Assembly (NCBI GenBank): GCA_028284525.1 | Contig: JANQRO010000187.1 | Coordinates: 1-51,448 of the forward strand | Direction of reading: 5' to 3' | Length of the DNA stretch: 51,448 bases | Origin: Myxococcota bacterium | Lineage (GTDB): Bacteria > Myxococcota_A > UBA9160 > PR03 | Made by a program: the position numbers and the translations under genes | In this document: positions 33,844 to 49,001 of the stretch, one piece after another | How the letters are laid out: every line of letters begins with the position of its first letter | Numbering within the stretch: the stretch's first letter is position 1 | The notes under the pieces: model-generated | What the model saw: only the letters and a program-made list of their open reading frames with translations | What the model was told of the DNA's origin: nothing | Databases searched by the model: none

Positions 33844-35124
33844 TTGCCCGATCCCCCCGAGGTCCAGCTCTTCGATCCGGCCACCCTGATCGATCCCTAT
33901 CCCGCCTACCGGCGTCTGCGCGACGAGGCCCCGGTGCACTTCGTGCCGGAGATGAACCTCTACGTGGTCACCCGCTACGACCTGGTGCGTCAGGCGATCG
34001 CGGACACCGAAACCTTCTCGAGCGGGTTCGACGAGTTTCTGGTGGGGGTCCAGCGGGCCGGCTTTGCCGCGGCGCCGCCCGAGATCCGGGCGCGGCTCGC
34101 GGAGATCCACCGCGAGCTGATCCCGCCGGTCCCCACCCTGCTCACGCTGGATCCACCCCGCCACGGCCACTACCGGTCGCTGGTGAGCAAGCTCTTCACC
34201 GCGGGCCGGGTCCGGAAGGGGGAGCCCCAGGTCGCCGCCATCGTCGACCGCGCGGCCGACGTCTACGCCGCCACCTCCGGATGCGATTTCGTCGCGGGCT
34301 TTGCCGCCCCGGTGCCCCTGCGCATCATCGCCGATCGTCTCGGCATCCCTGAAGGCGACCGGGCTTTCTTCGACGAGGCCGCCCAGGCGGCCGCGGCGGC
34401 ACTGCGGATGACGCCCCTGGGCCCCGAGGAGATGGTGCACCGCGCGCAGCTCTCCCTCGACCTCCAGCGTCTCTTGGTCCGGCTGATCGAGGAGCGTCGG
34501 GCCGAGCCCGGCGACGACATGATCAGCCTCCTCGCGACGAGCGAGCTCGAGGAGGAGGCGCGCCCCCTCGAGCACGCCGAGGCGCTCTCGATCCTCGCGC
34601 AGTTCCTGGTCGCCGGACACGAGACGACCGCCAGCACCTTCGCCTGGGGGCTGCTGCTCTTGTGTCGGGAGCCGTCGCTCCAGGACGAGATTCGCGGCGA
34701 CCCGGCGCTGATCAAGGCCTTCGTGGAAGAGACCCTGCGGCTGGAGTCGCCGGTGCAGGGACTCCCCCGTGTGGTGGCCCGTGATACGGAGCTCGGCGGT
34801 GTCGCGTTGCGCGAGGGCGACACGGTGATGCTCCGCTTTGGCGCGGCCAACCGCGACGAGCGCCACTTCGAGCGCCCCGACCGCGTCGATCTGCACCGAC
34901 CCCAGGCGGGCTCGCACTTCGCCTTCGGATCCGGGCGGCACCACTGCATCGGCGCGCCGCTGGCGCGTCAGGAACTCAACCTCGGGTTCGCCGCGTTGCT
35001 CGAGCGGATGGAGCGGATCCGGTTGGCGCCCGGTCGTCCCGAGCCCCACGCCGAGCCCAGCTTCGTGCTCCGCAACCTGCCGCGTCTGGTCCTCGACTTC
35101 GACCGCCGTCCGGTCGGCGTCTAG
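33844..35124 (+). CDS. Cytochrome P450
   Basis: A 426-residue soluble bacterial P450. The I-helix oxygen-binding motif is FLVAGHETTAST, the K-helix ExxR is EETLR, and the haem loop FGSGRHHCIGAPLAR has ligand Cys368. It begins with TTG 33844, supported by AGGAGG 6 bases upstream; the first residues LPDPPEVQLFDP fit the family. Substrate unknown; no ferredoxin gene is adjacent, so redox partners are elsewhere. It converges on the small DDN-like gene. The second P450 at 43907 is of a different branch. Confidence 0.95.
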   Translation: MPDPPEVQLFDPATLIDPYPAYRRLRDEAPVHFVPEMNLYVVTRYDLVRQAIADTETFSSGFDEFLVGVQRAGFAAAPPEIRARLAEIHRELIPPVPTLLTLDPPRHGHYRSLVSKLFTAGRVRKGEPQVAAIVDRAADVYAATSGCDFVAGFAAPVPLRIIADRLGIPEGDRAFFDEAAQAAAAALRMTPLGPEEMVHRAQLSLDLQRLLVRLIEERRAEPGDDMISLLATSELEEEARPLEHAEALSILAQFLVAGHETTASTFAWGLLLLCREPSLQDEIRGDPALIKAFVEETLRLESPVQGLPRVVARDTELGGVALREGDTVMLRFGAANRDERHFERPDRVDLHRPQAGSHFAFGSGRHHCIGAPLARQELNLGFAALLERMERIRLAPGRPEPHAEPSFVLRNLPRLVLDFDRRPVGV

Positions 35125-42492: not shown

Positions 42493-42966
42493 GTGGCCGC
42501 ACGCGTCCTCGCCTATTCCGACCTCGCGGTCCACGTGGGTCAGGAGCTCGGCGTCTCCGGCTGGATCCGGGTGACCCAGGACGAGGTCGACGCCTACGCG
42601 GACGCCACCAACGACCACCAGTGGTTCTGCGAAGACCCCGAACGCGCCGCCCGCGAGTCGCCCTTTGGCGGGACCGTCGCTCCCGGGTACTTCCTCCTCG
42701 CGCTGGTTCCGGGTCTGCTGAAAGAGCTCTGGTATGTGGACGGCGCAAGGATGGCGATCAACTACGGGATCGACCGGCTGCGCTTCCCGGCCCCCCTGCG
42801 CGTCGGGAGGCGGGTGCGTCTACGCGCCGTCCTCGCCGCCGTGGTCGACCGGGACCGCGGCCGGGACGTGACCCTCGAACTCGCCCTCGAGGGAGACGAC
42901 GGGTCCGCCCCCGTGTGCGCGGCCCGCGTGGTCTACCGCTTCCTCGCGCCGGGCACCGGCTCGTGA
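42493..42966 (+). CDS. MaoC-like hydratase
   Basis: A 157-residue hot-dog-fold enoyl-CoA hydratase-type protein. WIRVTQDEVDAYADATNDHQWFCED is the MaoC/R-hydratase motif, with Asp and His of the catalytic region. FGGTVAPGYFLLALVPGLLKE and the N-terminal FAS1/NodN-like layout follow. GTG 42493 starts 22 bases after DUF35. It is expected to hydrate the enoyl-CoA that the Ltp2-like protein then cleaves, as in the ChsH/Ltp2 arrangement; substrate unknown. Confidence 0.88.
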   Translation: MAARVLAYSDLAVHVGQELGVSGWIRVTQDEVDAYADATNDHQWFCEDPERAARESPFGGTVAPGYFLLALVPGLLKELWYVDGARMAINYGIDRLRFPAPLRVGRRVRLRAVLAAVVDRDRGRDVTLELALEGDDGSAPVCAARVVYRFLAPGTGS

Positions 42967-42994
42967 GCCGGGGTGTGGGGATCGCTCCGCCCCG

Positions 42995-43864
42995 CTACGC
43001 CGACCCCGAGAGACGCGCGAGGACGTTGTCCGCGGCGTACTGCTCGTCGCCGTCGTAGCGCGGGGCCTGGGCGGCAAACGCCGCTTCGGCGCCCCGCCAG
43101 CGCTCCTCGGCGATCTCGACGACGTGGGGGTGGGTCACGATGAAGAACTCCTCGTCCCGGACCCCGCGCAGGGCTCGCGCGGCGATGTCCTCCGCCGGAA
43201 GCCCCAGAGCCATCGCCGCCGCGCCGAGTTCGTTCCCGGGTTCGGCACCGCCGTAGGCCTCGTGACGTCGCTCGGTCGCGCGCCAGAGCGTGCTCTCGAC
43301 GATGCCCGGGCACAGCACGCTCACGCCGACACCCTCGGGAAGCTCGCGACGCAGCACGTCGGAGAGACCGAGCACGGCGTGTTTGGTCGCGGTGTAGAGG
43401 CCCGCTTGCAGGTGCGGCACCCCGAGGCTGTGCTCGGAGCCCGTGTTGACGATCCAGCAGGCCCGCTCGGAGGCGACGAAGCGGGGCCCGAATACACGGA
43501 TCCCGTTCATCACCCCGCCCACGTTGACGCCGAAGCACCAGTCGAGCTCCGACGCGCTGGTCTCGACCAGCGGCTTCATCGGGTGGATCACCCCCGCGTT
43601 GTTGAAGAGCAGCTCGACCGAGCCAAATCGCTCCCACGCGCGATCGGCGAGCTGCCGGAGGTGGTCCTCCTCCACGACATCGACACGCATGGCGAGCGAA
43701 CCCACGCCGTGTTCGGCGGCTTCGGAGGCGACCCGCGCGGCGGCGTCTTCCTCGATGTCGGCGACTGCCACGTTCACGCCTTCGGCGGCCAACGCCAGCG
43801 CGATCGCGCGCCCGATTCCGTTGCCCGCTCCCGTGACGACTGCGGAGGTCCCCGCAAGCTCCAT
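42995..43864 (-). CDS. Short-chain dehydrogenase/reductase
   Basis: A 289-residue classical SDR with TGAGNGIG, NNAGVIH, NTGSEHS and catalytic YTATK, then CPGIVEST. The C-terminal region (DEEFFIVTHPHVVEIAEERW) is like that of the SDR at 31082. Last gene of the TetR-epimerase-P450-SDR unit, 42 bases after the P450 stop. ATG 43864 follows AAAGGAG. Substrate unknown. Confidence 0.9.
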   Translation of the reverse strand: MELAGTSAVVTGAGNGIGRAIALALAAEGVNVAVADIEEDAAARVASEAAEHGVGSLAMRVDVVEEDHLRQLADRAWERFGSVELLFNNAGVIHPMKPLVETSASELDWCFGVNVGGVMNGIRVFGPRFVASERACWIVNTGSEHSLGVPHLQAGLYTATKHAVLGLSDVLRRELPEGVGVSVLCPGIVESTLWRATERRHEAYGGAEPGNELGAAAMALGLPAEDIAARALRGVRDEEFFIVTHPHVVEIAEERWRGAEAAFAAQAPRYDGDEQYAADNVLARLSGSA

Positions 43865-43906
43865 GGTGGCTCCTTTCTCGTGAGGCGACCGTCGTCGCCG
43901 AGGGGG

Positions 43907-45136
43907 TCAGTGGGGGCGCAGCGCGTACCGGATGGGCACGCGTTTCGGGCCGCCGACGAAGAGCGTCTTCGCGGCGGGCGCCGGTCCTGCGAGCTCGAGG
44001 GAGGCGAGACGCGGGACGAGGTGCCGGAAGAGCGAGCGCAGCTCCATCCGCGCCAGGTGCGAGCCCAGACAGAAATGCACGCCGTACCCGAAGGCGATGT
44101 GTTGATCCGCGTTGGGCCGCGCGATGTCGAAACGCAGCGGGTCGTCGAAGACGTCTGGATCGTGGTTGGCGGCGAGATAGGAGAGGTAGATCCAGTCGCC
44201 TTCGCGGATCGGCTGTCCGGCGATCTCGGTGTCGGCGGTCGCGGTCCGCATGAAGTGTCGCACGGGGCTCGTCCAGCGGAGGATCTCCTCGACGGCGTTG
44301 TCGAGGAGCTCGGGCCGTTCCTGCAGGGCGGCGAGCTGCTCGGGGTGCTCGGCGAAGGCCTGCACGCCGCCGGCCATGGCGCTCGAGGTGGTGTCGTGCC
44401 CCGCGGTGGCGACGATCAGGTAGTACCCCATCTGTTCGAGCTCGGGCATGGGTGCGTCGTCGATCTCGCCGTTGGCGATCAGGGTGGCGAGGTCGTCGGT
44501 CGGGTGCGCGCGGCGGCTCTTGGTGAGCTCCGTGAAGTAGCTGTAGAAGTCGGCGAGGACCGCGGCGAGCTTCTCCGGCCCGAGGGGCTCCCGCTGGAGG
44601 TCCGGGTCGTCGGCGCCGAAGAGCTGTTGGGTCAGCATCAACATCCGCGGGAAGTCCTCCTCGGGGAGACCGAGCAGCCGGAGGATCACCCGGAGCGGAA
44701 AGGGCAACGCCACCTCGCTCGCGAAGTCGCAGGAGCCGCCCAGCCCCTCGAGGGTCGCGATGGCCTCGACCGAGAGCGCGTCGAGGTCGGCCGCCATCCG
44801 CCGGATGCTCGCCGGTTTGAACCAGTCGCTGGTCAGGCTGCGGTACTTGCGGTGCTCCGGGTCGTCCATGTGGATCAACGCCTTGACGTTCCCCCCCTGC
44901 GCCATCTGCGCCTCGCGGTCGGCGATGCGCGCCAACACCGGTTCGGGCCGGTTGGTGAACAGCGCGGGTTGCCCTTCGACCTCGCGCAGCGTCGAGAGGT
45001 CGGTGATGGCCCAGAAGGGATGAAAGCCCTCCGCCTCGACGCGGTGGATGGGCCCTTTGGCGTGGAGCTCGAGGGCGCGTCGTCGCCAGCGATCGAGGTC
45101 GCCGAAGGCGTGGGGGTCGGTGAAGAGGTCGGTCAT
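43907..45136 (-). CDS. Cytochrome P450
   Basis: A 409-residue soluble P450 of the CYP125/142/124-like shape by eye. The I-helix is ATAGHDTTSSAM, ExxR is EEILR, and the haem loop FGYGVHFCLGSHLAR has ligand Cys356. MDDPEHRKYRSLTSDWFKP and SPVRHFMRTATADTEIAG are typical. Substrate may be a steroid or terpene-like compound (inference from the branch). ATG 45136 has GAGGA 7 bases upstream. It lies in the TetR-controlled operon, 23 bases after the epimerase stop. Confidence 0.94.
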   Translation of the reverse strand: MTDLFTDPHAFGDLDRWRRRALELHAKGPIHRVEAEGFHPFWAITDLSTLREVEGQPALFTNRPEPVLARIADREAQMAQGGNVKALIHMDDPEHRKYRSLTSDWFKPASIRRMAADLDALSVEAIATLEGLGGSCDFASEVALPFPLRVILRLLGLPEEDFPRMLMLTQQLFGADDPDLQREPLGPEKLAAVLADFYSYFTELTKSRRAHPTDDLATLIANGEIDDAPMPELEQMGYYLIVATAGHDTTSSAMAGGVQAFAEHPEQLAALQERPELLDNAVEEILRWTSPVRHFMRTATADTEIAGQPIREGDWIYLSYLAANHDPDVFDDPLRFDIARPNADQHIAFGYGVHFCLGSHLARMELRSLFRHLVPRLASLELAGPAPAAKTLFVGGPKRVPIRYALRPH

Positions 45137-45159
45137 GTCGGGTCCTCGCGTCTCGATGG

Positions 45160-46185
45160 CTAGACCAGGCCGTAGCGGATCAGGCTCTCGCCCATCTCGA
45201 CCACCATCTCCTCGATCCCGCGCGGTTTCCAGCCGAGGCGCTCCCGGATCTTCGAGGAGTCGATGTCCTGGCGGTTCCCGAGCTCGGGCAGCACCAGACG
45301 CGTGGTCTTGTCGAAGAGCGCGACGCCGCGGATCACGAAGTTCGGGAGCTTGCGGGTCGCGGCGCGGTAGCCGCGCTCGGCGAAGTGACGGTTCAGGATC
45401 TCGACGATCTCCTCCATCCACGTGTGCTCGCCCGCGCAGAGGAAGCGCTCGTTGGCCGCGCTCGGCGCCGTCATCGCGGCGACGTGGGCCGCGGCGACGT
45501 CGCGGACGTCGACGCACGCGTAGCCCAGACGCGGGATCCCCGGGAACTCCTTCGCCATGAACTTGCGCACCGCCTCCGAGGAGGTGGGCGGGGTGTCGGC
45601 GCTGAGAAGCGGCCCGAGGATCAGACCCGGGTTGATCACGGCGAACTCGAGACCGCGCTCGCGCGCGAAATCCCACGCCGCGCGTTCGGCGAGGGTCTTG
45701 CTCTTCTCGTAGGGGTTGAGCCCCTCGACTACCGACCAGTCGCTCTCGTCGAAGGTCTTGGACCCGTCGCGGGCGTGGCCGTAGACGACCGCGGCGAGCG
45801 ACGACGTCATCACGACCCGCTCGACCCCCGCGTCGGCGGCGGCGCGCAGCACGCGGAGCGCGCCCTCCCGCGCGGGAACGATCAGCTCGTCTTCGTGACG
45901 CGGGATCTCGGCGGGAATCGGCGAGGCGATGTGCTGGACGTAGCGGCACCCGCGGGTCGCCTCGTCCCAGCCCGCGTCGCTCCCGAGGTCCGCGACCGCC
46001 ACCTCGAAGCGGTCGGCGTGCTCGGTGTGGGCCGCCAGCGCTTCGCGGAGTGGCGCCTCGCGGCGCTCGGAGCGCACGGTTCCGCGAACGCGGTATCCGT
46101 CGCGCAGCAGGGCGAGGACCGTGTGGAGGCCCACGAAGCCGCCGGCGCCGGTCACCAGGACCGGGGTGTCGTCGTGTGTCGTCAT
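45160..46185 (-). CDS. NAD(P)-dependent epimerase/dehydratase, dihydroflavonol-reductase-like
   Basis: A 341-residue extended SDR. The cofactor motif is VTGAGGFVG, TSSLAAVVYG precedes catalytic YEKSKTLAER, and INPGLILGPLLSADTPP is typical of the dihydroflavonol-4-reductase/3-beta-hydroxysteroid-like group. It would reduce a ketone or oxidise a secondary alcohol. Its ATG 46185 overlaps the TetR stop in ATGA, so it is co-translated with its regulator and is likely under its control. Confidence 0.9.
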   Translation of the reverse strand: MTTHDDTPVLVTGAGGFVGLHTVLALLRDGYRVRGTVRSERREAPLREALAAHTEHADRFEVAVADLGSDAGWDEATRGCRYVQHIASPIPAEIPRHEDELIVPAREGALRVLRAAADAGVERVVMTSSLAAVVYGHARDGSKTFDESDWSVVEGLNPYEKSKTLAERAAWDFARERGLEFAVINPGLILGPLLSADTPPTSSEAVRKFMAKEFPGIPRLGYACVDVRDVAAAHVAAMTAPSAANERFLCAGEHTWMEEIVEILNRHFAERGYRAATRKLPNFVIRGVALFDKTTRLVLPELGNRQDIDSSKIRERLGWKPRGIEEMVVEMGESLIRYGLV

Positions 46186-46898
46186 CGGGAAGCGCCTTTC
46201 GGGGAGTTGGGATCGGGGAGGCCCCGACCGGGTTCGGGAGGTTCGATCTGGAGGTAGTCACACGCGGAGCGCAGCGCTTCGCGCGTGAACTCGGAATCGG
46301 AGCGCGCGGCGAGGCGTGTCGGCTCGCCGTGCTCGAGCCGGGCGCTGAGCATCGCGCTCAGCTGGTCGAGGACGAAGGCGACGGCGAGGGGCGGGTCCGG
46401 GTGGCCGATCTCGCTGCGGCGCGCCAGGAGCAGCTCTGTCAGGCGCTCCGCCAGCTCGATCCGGAATTCGGCGAGGTGGTCGCGGAGCGCGGCCTCGTGT
46501 CGCGCAATGGCCAGACCCGCGAGCTTGAAGGTGGGGCGCTCGCGCGCCACCTCTTGGGAGAACTCGAGATAGGCCCGGAGGATGTCGCCGACGGAGGCGC
46601 CCTCCCAACGCGCCGGGTCGACCGCGGCCCGGGTGGTCGCCCGCACCTCCTCCTCCATCCGCTGGAAGACCGCGTAGAGCAGGGTCTTCTTGTCGCGGAA
46701 GTGGTGGTAGAGCGCACCGACCGAGCACCCCGCCCCGGCCGCCACGTCGGCGACCGAGGTCGCTTCGACGCCCTTCTCCGCGAGCAGCGTCGCGGCGGAT
46801 TCCAAGAGTGATTCCTGGGTCTTGCGGCTTCGCGACTGCTGGCCCGCGCGGATCCACTGGAGGTCGCGAATCCAGGGACTCCGCGTCTCTTCGCCCAT
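46182..46898 (-). CDS. TetR-family transcriptional regulator
   Basis: A 238-residue repressor. The N-terminal HTH (residues about 26-72) reads ESLLESAATLLAEKGVEATSVADVAAGAGCSVGALYHHFRDKKTLLYAVF, a textbook TetR domain; the C-terminal ligand domain is unclassified. First gene of the operon with epimerase, P450 and SDR. A 28-base palindrome over its promoter is the expected operator, so it probably represses its own operon until a ligand, possibly the P450 substrate, binds. Confidence 0.93.
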   Translation of the reverse strand: MGEETRSPWIRDLQWIRAGQQSRSRKTQESLLESAATLLAEKGVEATSVADVAAGAGCSVGALYHHFRDKKTLLYAVFQRMEEEVRATTRAAVDPARWEGASVGDILRAYLEFSQEVARERPTFKLAGLAIARHEAALRDHLAEFRIELAERLTELLLARRSEIGHPDPPLAVAFVLDQLSAMLSARLEHGEPTRLAARSDSEFTREALRSACDYLQIEPPEPGRGLPDPNSPKGASR

Positions 46899-46923
46899 CT
46901 CGCCCTTCGCCCCCGTGCTCAGC

Positions 46924-46951
46924 GAACCGAATAGTAATTATGATTCGGTTC
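46924..46951. promoter_or_regulatory. TetR-type operator palindrome
   Basis: GAACCGAAT and ATTCGGTTC form a perfect 9-base inverted repeat with a 10-base AT-rich spacer. It covers the -10 hexamer and most of the promoter spacer of the TetR operon. Confidence 0.7.
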
Positions 46952-46959
46952 CCGTGCAA
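46931..46959 (-). promoter_or_regulatory. Sigma-70-type promoter of the TetR operon
   Basis: On the minus strand TTGCAC (46959-46954), 17 bases, then TACTAT (46936-46931), 32 bases upstream of the regulator ATG. It is the best -35/-10 pair in the window. Confidence 0.6.
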
Positions 46960-47036
46960 GACCCTTCCCTCAGCCGGTCTCGGCAGCGCTGGCGGCCCCG
47001 GCGCTCCCGGGTTGACCGGGGCCGGGGCTCCGCCGG

Positions 47037-48530
47037 CTAGCGCTGAATCACGCGGAGGTAGGCGACGAGGGCGTCGAGCCGGTCGGGGGCGCTCCAGAAC
47101 GCGCCCCAGCGCGGCATCTCGGGGGAGCGGTGGGCGCCGACGGGGTCGCGCCCGTCGATCAGAGATCGCACTTCGGCGCTCGGGAACTCGCCGCCCCGTC
47201 TCCCTTCGATGCGGGTGAGGTCCTTTGGCGGCGTCATCAAGGTGGGGGCCGCGGGGCCGTCGCCGGTCGCATCGGCACCGTGGCAGAAGGCGCAGTGGTC
47301 GGCGAAGAGACGCGCTCCGCGTTGGGCCAGATCGAGCTGGTCCGACGCGTCGAGGTCCACCGCGGCGCCGAGGTCCACGTCGTCGAGCGGCGTCATCCCC
47401 GCGAGCCGGCGCAAGCGCCGCAGCCGTTCTGCCTCGTCCGGCGGAAGACGCAACCCCCCGGATCCGGTGAATCCGGCGATCGTCTCCTCCTGCAGGATCG
47501 CGAAGGCCTCCCGCGACACCTCCGTCTCGGGGGCCAAGCGGATCGCGGTCTCCAGGTAGAGATCGGCGCGGGGCAGCCAGCCCGAAGGCCCGATGCCGAG
47601 CTCGGCCCGGCCCAGGAGGAGGTAGACCTCGGCCGCGTCCCTCGGGGAGTCCTGGGGTTCGGGGAGCAGGTCGGAGAGCTGCGCGGCCGCCACCAGATAC
47701 TCGATCAAGGAGCGGCGGTCGCCGGGGCTGCGACCCTCCACGTGGCCCGCGGCGAGGGCGGCGCGCGCCCGCTCGAGGGTCGTGCCCGCCAGGTCCTCGG
47801 GGCGGAGGGACGCCAAACGCTCGCGCCAGTGGTCGAGGTCCGAGCGGAGGGCGGTGGGGAGCGAGGGGCGCTCCAAGAGCGCGTTCACCAGAGTGGTGGC
47901 GCGCGCGGGATCGCGTTTTACCCGGAGCGCCACGCCCACGGCGTCGGCGAGGGGGCCGATCAACACCGAGGGCTCCTGGCCGGGGTCGCGAAAGACCGCC
48001 TCGTAGGTGTCGAGGGCCTCGCCGAACTGTCGGGTCGCGACCAGGGCAATCGCCCGCTCGAGGCGGTCGAGCTCCTGGAGCTGCGGCTCGCGCAAGAACC
48101 CGTCCGGCCAGGGAGAGTCGACGGCCGGTCGCAGGGTGTGGCACGCGACACAGTCGTCCACCAGCGACTCGACGTAGAACGCGGCGTTCTCGTTGCGTCC
48201 GCGTTCGAAGAGCTCGCGGGCCCGCTGGGCGTCGCGCGCCAGCGCCTGCCCGAAGAGCCGAGCGCCCGGGTCGAGCCCCGCGCCGTGTTCGTCGAGGGCG
48301 GCGGCGCGTGCTTCGAGCGCGCCCAGCGCGGCACGGATCTCGTCGGCGCGCGCCGGGTCGTCAAAGCGGTGTTGGACGGCTTCGGGGAGCAGCACCCGGA
48401 GCTGCGCGAAGATCTCACGCATCGCCGCCCGGGTGGCCTCGTCCGCCCCGGCGCGTTCCACGAGCGCCCACCCGGCAACGAGGAGGGCGATCGCCACCCC
48501 CGTCGCGATCCGTCGTCGCGTCTCCCCCAT
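47037..48530 (-). CDS. Diheme c-type cytochrome with helical repeat-like middle
   Basis: A 497-residue exported electron-transfer protein. The signal region is IATGVAIALLVAGWALVERAGA. The first haem site is CVACH (127-131) and the second CAFCH (413-417), with Met472 in SPEMPRWG as probable axial ligand of the C-terminal cytochrome c domain. Between them lie alpha-helical, Leu/Ala-rich segments resembling TPR repeats. The first site lies in a helical cytochrome-c'-like context (upstream HRFDDPARADEIRAALGAL). Partner unknown. Sequence after the stop can form GC-rich stems (GGCCCCGG/CCGGGGCC at 46994-47023) of possible terminator value. Confidence 0.85.
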   Translation of the reverse strand: MGETRRRIATGVAIALLVAGWALVERAGADEATRAAMREIFAQLRVLLPEAVQHRFDDPARADEIRAALGALEARAAALDEHGAGLDPGARLFGQALARDAQRARELFERGRNENAAFYVESLVDDCVACHTLRPAVDSPWPDGFLREPQLQELDRLERAIALVATRQFGEALDTYEAVFRDPGQEPSVLIGPLADAVGVALRVKRDPARATTLVNALLERPSLPTALRSDLDHWRERLASLRPEDLAGTTLERARAALAAGHVEGRSPGDRRSLIEYLVAAAQLSDLLPEPQDSPRDAAEVYLLLGRAELGIGPSGWLPRADLYLETAIRLAPETEVSREAFAILQEETIAGFTGSGGLRLPPDEAERLRRLRRLAGMTPLDDVDLGAAVDLDASDQLDLAQRGARLFADHCAFCHGADATGDGPAAPTLMTPPKDLTRIEGRRGGEFPSAEVRSLIDGRDPVGAHRSPEMPRWGAFWSAPDRLDALVAYLRVIQR

Positions 48531-48548
48531 CGGCCTGTCTCCTCGACC

Positions 48549-49001
48549 CTAGTCCGCGTCGCGCCGGAGCTGTGCCCGGAGCTCTTCGCTCGCCATCAGC
48601 TCGACGAAGTTCGATTCGGTGAGGATGCCGACCAGCCGTCCGTCCTCGAGGACGGGAAGACACCCGATCTTGTACTCGATCATCCGCTCGGCGGCCTCGG
48701 TCACCGTGGTGTCCGGGGTCACCCACATCGGGTCGGGCGTCATCACCGATCCGACCAGGACGGCGTCCAGGGCCGCTTCGGCGGCGTCGTCGTCGATCCC
48801 GAGCTTGCGGGCGAGGCCACTCCGGAACAGATCGCGTTGGGTGACGACGCCCACGAGCTCGTTGCTGTGGGACGCGAGCACCGGGAGGTGCCGGATCCGA
48901 TTCATCCCCATCAGGTCGTCGGCGACGCGAAGCACCTCGTCGGAGCGGAGGAACTCGGGAGCGGTCGTCATCAGGCTGCGCACGCGAAACACGGAGAACA
49001 T
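48549..49001 (-). CDS. CBS-domain-pair protein
   Basis: A 150-residue protein consisting of two CBS motifs: VRSLMTTAPEFLRSDEVLRVADDLMG ... LVGVVTQRDLFR and VGSVMTPDPMWVTPDTTVTEAAERMIEYKIGCLPVLEDGRLVGILTESNFVELM. It probably binds adenine nucleotides as a dimer; target unknown. ATG 49001 has AGGAGG 6 bases upstream, one of the best ribosome sites here. It is upstream of the cytochrome gene by 18 bases, same strand, so they may be co-expressed. Its second CBS is very similar to that of the protein at 3285. Confidence 0.92.
   Translation of the reverse strand: MFSVFRVRSLMTTAPEFLRSDEVLRVADDLMGMNRIRHLPVLASHSNELVGVVTQRDLFRSGLARKLGIDDDAAEAALDAVLVGSVMTPDPMWVTPDTTVTEAAERMIEYKIGCLPVLEDGRLVGILTESNFVELMASEELRAQLRRDAD

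Follow-up and report, generated by a model that had tools for sequence, protein, structure and literature searches.

A perfect inverted repeat is located in front of a group of genes that includes a TetR-type regulator and a cytochrome P450 in the window, a term used here for the whole stretch of 51,448 nucleotides analysed, a contig from an uncultured lineage of Myxococcota. The question that this locus raises is whether the repeat is an operator and, if so, which protein recognizes it and in which form. From the sequence, the palindrome is best explained, with a probability of about 0.9, as the operator of the adjacent TetR, bound by one dimer or by two.

Location and symmetry of the palindrome

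The perfect 9-base inverted repeat reported in the first-pass annotation is present as described. It covers positions 46924-46951 (minus strand) and consists of GAACCGAAT CATAATTACT ATTCGGTTC, that is, GAACCGAATAGTAATTATGATTCGGTTC, with both arms perfect (GAACCGAAT-N10-ATTCGGTTC); the central TAATTA is likewise symmetric, which brings the symmetric positions to 24 out of 28. This predicted operator of 28 bp is placed inside a 138-bp gap, behind a cytochrome c gene on the same strand and 25 bp before the ATG of the TetR gene, and it is the top match in the window for the profile described below.

The arm length by itself is little proof against a chance origin, because the window contains 31 inverted repeats with perfect 9-bp arms and gaps of 0-20 when nested ones are counted (18 places once these are merged). 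The exact palindrome pattern with up to three mismatches is expected 0.03 times per shuffled window, this being a pattern picked after being seen. Its GC content is 36% versus 70% in the window, and 35 28-mers of the window are equally or more AT-rich, the palindrome itself and those overlapping it included. What sets the palindrome apart is its AT-richness, its position and, above all, its conservation in relatives.

Another perfect 9-bp inverted repeat, which is GC-rich (CGGCCCCGG-N14-CCGGGGCCG), is found at 46993-47024, right after the cytochrome c gene and without a U-run; it may insulate this gene from the TetR operon.

The operon and its encoded proteins

Four co-directional minus-strand genes, encoding a TetR, an extended-SDR reductase, a P450 and an SDR, have the palindrome at their head. 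The first one (46182-46898, minus strand) encodes a TetR-family regulator of 238 amino acids, in which the N-terminal helix-turn-helix PF00440 was found with an E value of 1.1e-14 and 54.4 bits, above the Pfam cut-off of 24. The AlphaFold2 model of this protein (mean pLDDT 83.7) has an all-helical TetR fold with a C-terminal core, and many of the best 50 fold matches listed are named TetR-family regulators (best Z 16.4, rmsd 2.6, 186 aligned). Assignment to the ScbR/gamma-butyrolactone receptors (NF041196, the best NCBIfam match) was rejected, with 62.4 bits against a curated cut-off of 150. Residues 8-23 (46830-46877, minus strand) form a conserved stretch ahead of the helix-turn-helix in which 14 homologues share W15, R17, Q21 and R23 without exception, and an additional helix is predicted at residues 8-13; this N-terminal stretch might touch DNA.

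The second gene (45160-46185, minus strand, PF01370) shares 4 bp with the end of the TetR gene. Its product had been annotated as an epimerase and is better called an extended-SDR reductase, because its nearest solved structures are cinnamoyl-CoA, dihydroflavonol and related reductases; the rest of that description, an operon that is led by TetR and includes a P450 and SDRs, was found as proposed. The P450 gene (43907-45136, minus strand, PF00067) starts 23 bp past the reductase stop and encodes a P450terp-like protein with 3tkt and P450terp (1cpt) as best solved matches. The P450terp group is known as CYP108, and membership at the level of a CYP family corresponds to about 40% identity to a named member. 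The final gene (42995-43864, minus strand), 42 bp past the P450 stop, encodes a classical short-chain dehydrogenase (PF00106, E 1.5e-40), and the operon end at 42995 faces a convergent MaoC-type gene ending at 42966. As a reasonable guess, the enzymes of this operon may oxidize a terpenoid or a hydrophobic alcohol, and a ligand may release the repressor.

Conservation of the site at close homologues

A protein search of 97 related genomes, in which no more than 29 first-look candidates were scored for each, has revealed TetR homologues with E<=1e-20 in at least 55 of them, the genome of the window included. In named genome contigs, 32 homologue loci were found; 13 of them align along most of the length of the protein, with 38-66% identity, and the other 19 along an N-terminal part only. 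The close set consists of 20 distinct loci with at least 46% identity, the window among them, and loci fetched twice off one contig (for example L003, L033, L035, L036, L038 and L039) were counted once. Locus L027, with a best local alignment of 48.5% over part of the protein, was placed outside both the close and the distant sets; a similar repeat is found upstream of its TetR gene.

A 22-bp core was parsed by eye from the AT-rich repeats upstream of homologues, and ten sites were used as a training profile. In the leave-one-out analysis, with the profile trained on the nine other loci, the window site ranked first in 51 kb (19.7 bits versus 9.8 for the next match), and it reached 22.9 bits when it was itself included in the profile, versus a maximum of 18.7 and a mean of 10.3 in 40 simulated windows. 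The left-out site was at the top of its own locus in nine of the ten training loci, and in L087 it came second, behind the same site moved by 6 bp. Since all ten sites used for training had been delimited by eye, the leave-one-out result is partly circular, a reservation that does not apply to the held-out set of ten loci or to the new places in whole genomes.

Seven of these ten held-out loci (L078, L079, L083, L085, L081, L041 and L043) beat all 40 first-order simulations, with a narrow margin in L083 (19.1 versus 18.9 in the simulations), and in L080, L082 and L042 the best match was not above all 40 simulated copies. L078, L079, L083 and L085 are four clear operon-head cases, in which another gene precedes TetR and the site is located before that first gene, the position to be expected for the operator of an operon. 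The best site lies directly before a P450 gene in L041 and before a molybdopterin-oxidoreductase gene in L081 (start codons assigned by eye). A site of at least 17.6 bits was found before TetR or its operon in 14 of the 20 close-homologue loci, ten of which trained the profile. The matches L037:9176 (16.2 bits) and L040:8283 (15.1 bits), which by eye are oxidoreductase-subunit coding DNA, were dropped as chance.

Whole-genome, distant-homologue and regulon searches

A sequence-only model built on the 14 sites was run on 12 genomes at E<=10, the number of first-look candidates scored being limited to 150 for each, and at least 20 distinct places were obtained, 11 corresponding to the model's own sites and 9 being new. 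Five of the new places are located 21-151 bp upstream of TetR relatives that had been found independently by the protein search. Another one (G034:C58, L116:2728-2755) is separated by about 10 bp from a downstream TetR-type gene, which was not matched by the window's TetR and is followed by an SDR-like gene, by eye. The remaining three (G072:C187, G039:C348 and G008:C526) are apparent coding DNA, by eye, and were dropped as chance. No place was obtained among the scored candidates of one genome, G020.

The distant set was made up of 19 homologues of 37-43% identity (taken below 45%), a part of all the protein-search matches, fetched from 30 loci plus L044 and L045. A profile match with p<=0.05 against dinucleotide shuffles was found in all 19 upstream regions (up to 220 bp plus 20 bp). 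In a rerun, the profile matched 18 of 19 regions, and twelve column-permuted symmetric profiles matched 4-12 of 19. Since the permuted profiles also score above chance, part of this signal is AT-rich composition, and the exact profile explains more.

The first-pass annotation had suggested that the palindrome could be used to find a wider regulon. This expectation was not borne out by a scan of the own draft genome (4.7 Mb, 601 contigs, 87% complete), which gave no second convincing site. Only the window site was found with the degenerate core at one mismatch, and the same was true of the 14-site model at E<=10, with 150 of 195 first-look candidates scored; a pattern search with up to three mismatches added C231:13320, C250:7352 and C565:1689, each at three. 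Control by this TetR therefore looks local, in a draft of that completeness.

The exact palindrome of the window, with up to two mismatches, was found in 6 other genomes of the 97, in every case on contigs apart from the TetR loci used; thus, the half-site layout is conserved at the TetR loci and the exact letters are not. One sequence with two mismatches to the window palindrome is GAACCGAAGAAATGATGTTAATCGGTTC, at L069:1501-1528 in another genome of the same order (G060). A literature search with the core CCGAATTCGG gave no TetR operator study, judged by title, among the matches listed, and the motif is not claimed to be unpublished.

Architecture of the probable operator and the putative promoter

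The 22-bp core CCGAAT-CATAAT-TACT-ATTCGG (46927-46948, minus strand) can be read as a pair of interleaved inverted repeats of 6-4-6 layout, whose dyads are separated by 6 bp. In the window these sub-repeats are imperfect, with three of six symmetric pairs at -3 and four of six at +3, and the outer 9-bp palindrome has a more perfect symmetry than they have; the ideal CCGAAT-N4-ATTCGG with up to two mismatches was found twice in the window versus 1.8 times expected. In the alignment A1 of the 14 sites, ten of them chosen by eye, no variation is seen in columns A7A8, T15T16 and T21T22, and A13 is kept in 12 sites and A14 in 13. CNGAAT-like half-sites recur each 6 bp on both strands across the 14 sites, and the conserved AA/TT columns thus point to half-sites of this type arranged as two interleaved 6-4-6 repeats. 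The mean number of symmetric pairs, out of six, was 4.5, 4.8 and 3.9 at -3, 0 and +3, versus 0.6-3.0 elsewhere within 15 bp, and with peaks at all three positions the dyads in use are not fixable from sequence.

On these patterns, a two-dimer site like those of QacR and CprB is the probable form of the operator and is favoured over a site for one dimer. Length and repeats were compared with those of dimer-of-dimers operators (at least 22 bp, with overlapping repeats): the site extends over 22-28 bp and the half-sites of the 14 sites are periodic, with the sub-repeats of the window imperfect, so that the two-dimer model rests on the family of sites. The simple palindrome proposed earlier, with a single dimer at the central dyad 46937/46938, is rather unlikely. 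It would agree with the 9-bp arms and the central TAATTA sharing one axis, with the mean symmetry of the 14 sites, which at the centre slightly exceeds that of the two flanking peaks, and with the single-dimer binding described for TetR, SimR and DesT (PMC4150764). However, operators of 22-32 bp are given for dimers of dimers and of 15-17 bp for single dimers (PMC4150764), against 22-28 bp here, and the AA/TT steps are conserved every 6 bp in the 14 sites, near the centre too. The earlier reading is retained in placing an operator in front of an operon that starts with TetR, but the sites of the relatives look like a double site rather than a simple one.

The promoter TTGCAC-N17-TACTAT had also been predicted over the palindrome. 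Its hexamers and spacing are as given, with a putative -35 box (3/6) at 46954-46959 and a putative -10 box (4/6) inside the operator at 46931-46936, both on the minus strand, but both are weak: 7 of 12 sigma-70 consensus positions are matched, below the threshold of at least 9 of 12 with a spacing of 16-18, and a scan of 42900-48600 at 9 or more hexamer matches gave no sigma-70 promoter. Its -10 box is also placed unlike that of most aligned sites. When the promoter geometry of the 14 sites was taken from the best-scoring hexamer pair, without a chance control, the -10 box was found just upstream of the core in 10 of them (starting at -3 to -1 in the 28-mer numbering), accompanied by a TTGAC -35 box in 9 of those 10; the exceptions were the window, L034, L090 and L084. 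The operator would thus cover the transcription start in those ten sites, and steric repression would be workable under either promoter layout.

Alternative explanations and proposed mechanism

Binding of the palindrome by some regulator other than the adjacent TetR is improbable. The model match G034:C58, which precedes a TetR-type gene not matched by the window's TetR, would fit such a situation, but the site tracks the TetR clade in 14 of 20 close loci (ten of which trained the profile), and five of the nine new whole-genome matches adjoin TetR paralogues. An inverted repeat arising by chance in an AT-rich promoter gap, with no regulatory role, has a very slight probability: repeats with perfect 9-bp arms are common in this window, as counted above, and the site is AT-rich within a window of 70% GC, but the motif recurs in relatives at the equivalent position, which argues against chance. 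It is hardly conceivable that the inverted repeat serves the cytochrome c gene as a terminator or an RNA hairpin, a role that might be suspected from its position after a gene of the same strand, considering that the loop has 10 bases and is AT-rich, that a scan of 42900-48600 gave no terminator-like site and that the motif stands behind different upstream genes in relatives.

The preferred explanation is an operator that would be recognized by the TetR repressor encoded immediately downstream. Two TetR dimers probably bind together, and each would occupy one 6-4-6 repeat (CCGAAT-N4-ATTACT or CATAAT-N4-ATTCGG), the two dyads lying at a distance of 6 bp. The bound repressor would cover the -10 region and the transcription start, and would silence its own gene and those of the reductase, the P450 and the SDR. 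The operon is very likely autoregulated, as suggested by an operator that heads the four co-directional genes 25 bp before TetR. By analogy with the TetR family, the repressor would be released by a small hydrophobic compound, perhaps the substrate or the product of the P450.

A possible conserved operator code with variable operons

The mechanism proposed is ordinary among TetR repressors. The neighbouring genes differ from relative to relative: representatives taken from ten gene clusters comprise SDRs, an aldo/keto reductase, a luciferase-like monooxygenase and a thioesterase, and also a molybdopterin oxidoreductase, an iron-sulphur protein, an ABM monooxygenase and an MFS transporter. A broader reading, for and against which the odds are even, is that a TetR clade, found in Myxococcota and also in MAGs classified as Alphaproteobacteria and Acidimicrobiales, has a single double-operator code throughout, with CNGAAT-like half-sites every 6 bp, while the operons under its control vary freely (P450, SDRs, molybdopterin oxidoreductase, luciferase-like monooxygenase, aldo/keto reductase, thioesterase). 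If true, this would be a portable catabolic switch with the DNA side fixed and the ligand and the payload variable. The TetR homologues of L034, L037, L040 and L041, with 53-59% identity and operator-like sites, come from MAGs titled Alphaproteobacteria or Acidimicrobiales, and both inter-phylum transfer and mis-binning are possible for them.

The palindrome has become a testable candidate operator with a consensus from 14 aligned sites, and a likely regulator can be named for a P450terp-like operon in an uncultured lineage. Candidate promoter-operator pairs for biosensors are also provided, an aim of the kind described for Snowprint (PMC10858194).

Comparison with known systems

The closest parallels are found in TetR-family operators with two dimers. 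One of them is CprB from Streptomyces together with the ArpA consensus operator, with a 22-bp semi-palindrome bound by two dimers on opposite sides, and CprB binds its own upstream sequence (PMC4150764). CprB (1ui5) is among the solved-structure sequence matches of the window's TetR (E 3.1e-8), but the half-site sequence differs and the window's TetR is below the ScbR-family cut-off. The IR1 operator of QacR from Staphylococcus is similarly a large inverted repeat over a promoter, bound by a pair of dimers (PMC3022030), two-dimer binding being a prediction in the present case; IR1 has 28 bp (PMC4150764), and QacR differs in regulating a multidrug efflux gene. Neither CprB nor QacR appeared among the best 50 fold matches listed for the TetR model, which excludes neither of them.

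FadRSa, a TetR-family protein from Sulfolobus, has a semi-palindromic operator, exerts local control of a gene cluster and binds as a dimer of dimers at high-affinity sites (PMC6449355). Its complex with DNA (6en8) is among the fold matches of the TetR model (Z 15.1, rmsd 3.3, 189 aligned). FadRSa differs from the present system in being archaeal, with an acyl-CoA ligand and four genomic sites in two binding modes.

The P450 of the operon resembles the P450terp group, 3tkt and P450terp being its best solved relatives. The Rhodococcus cyp108j1 gene is under a repressor named NarL (PMC7037279), in contrast to the TetR of the window operon. A second reading frame that clusters with the P450 of the operon is found in the window at 33844-35124.
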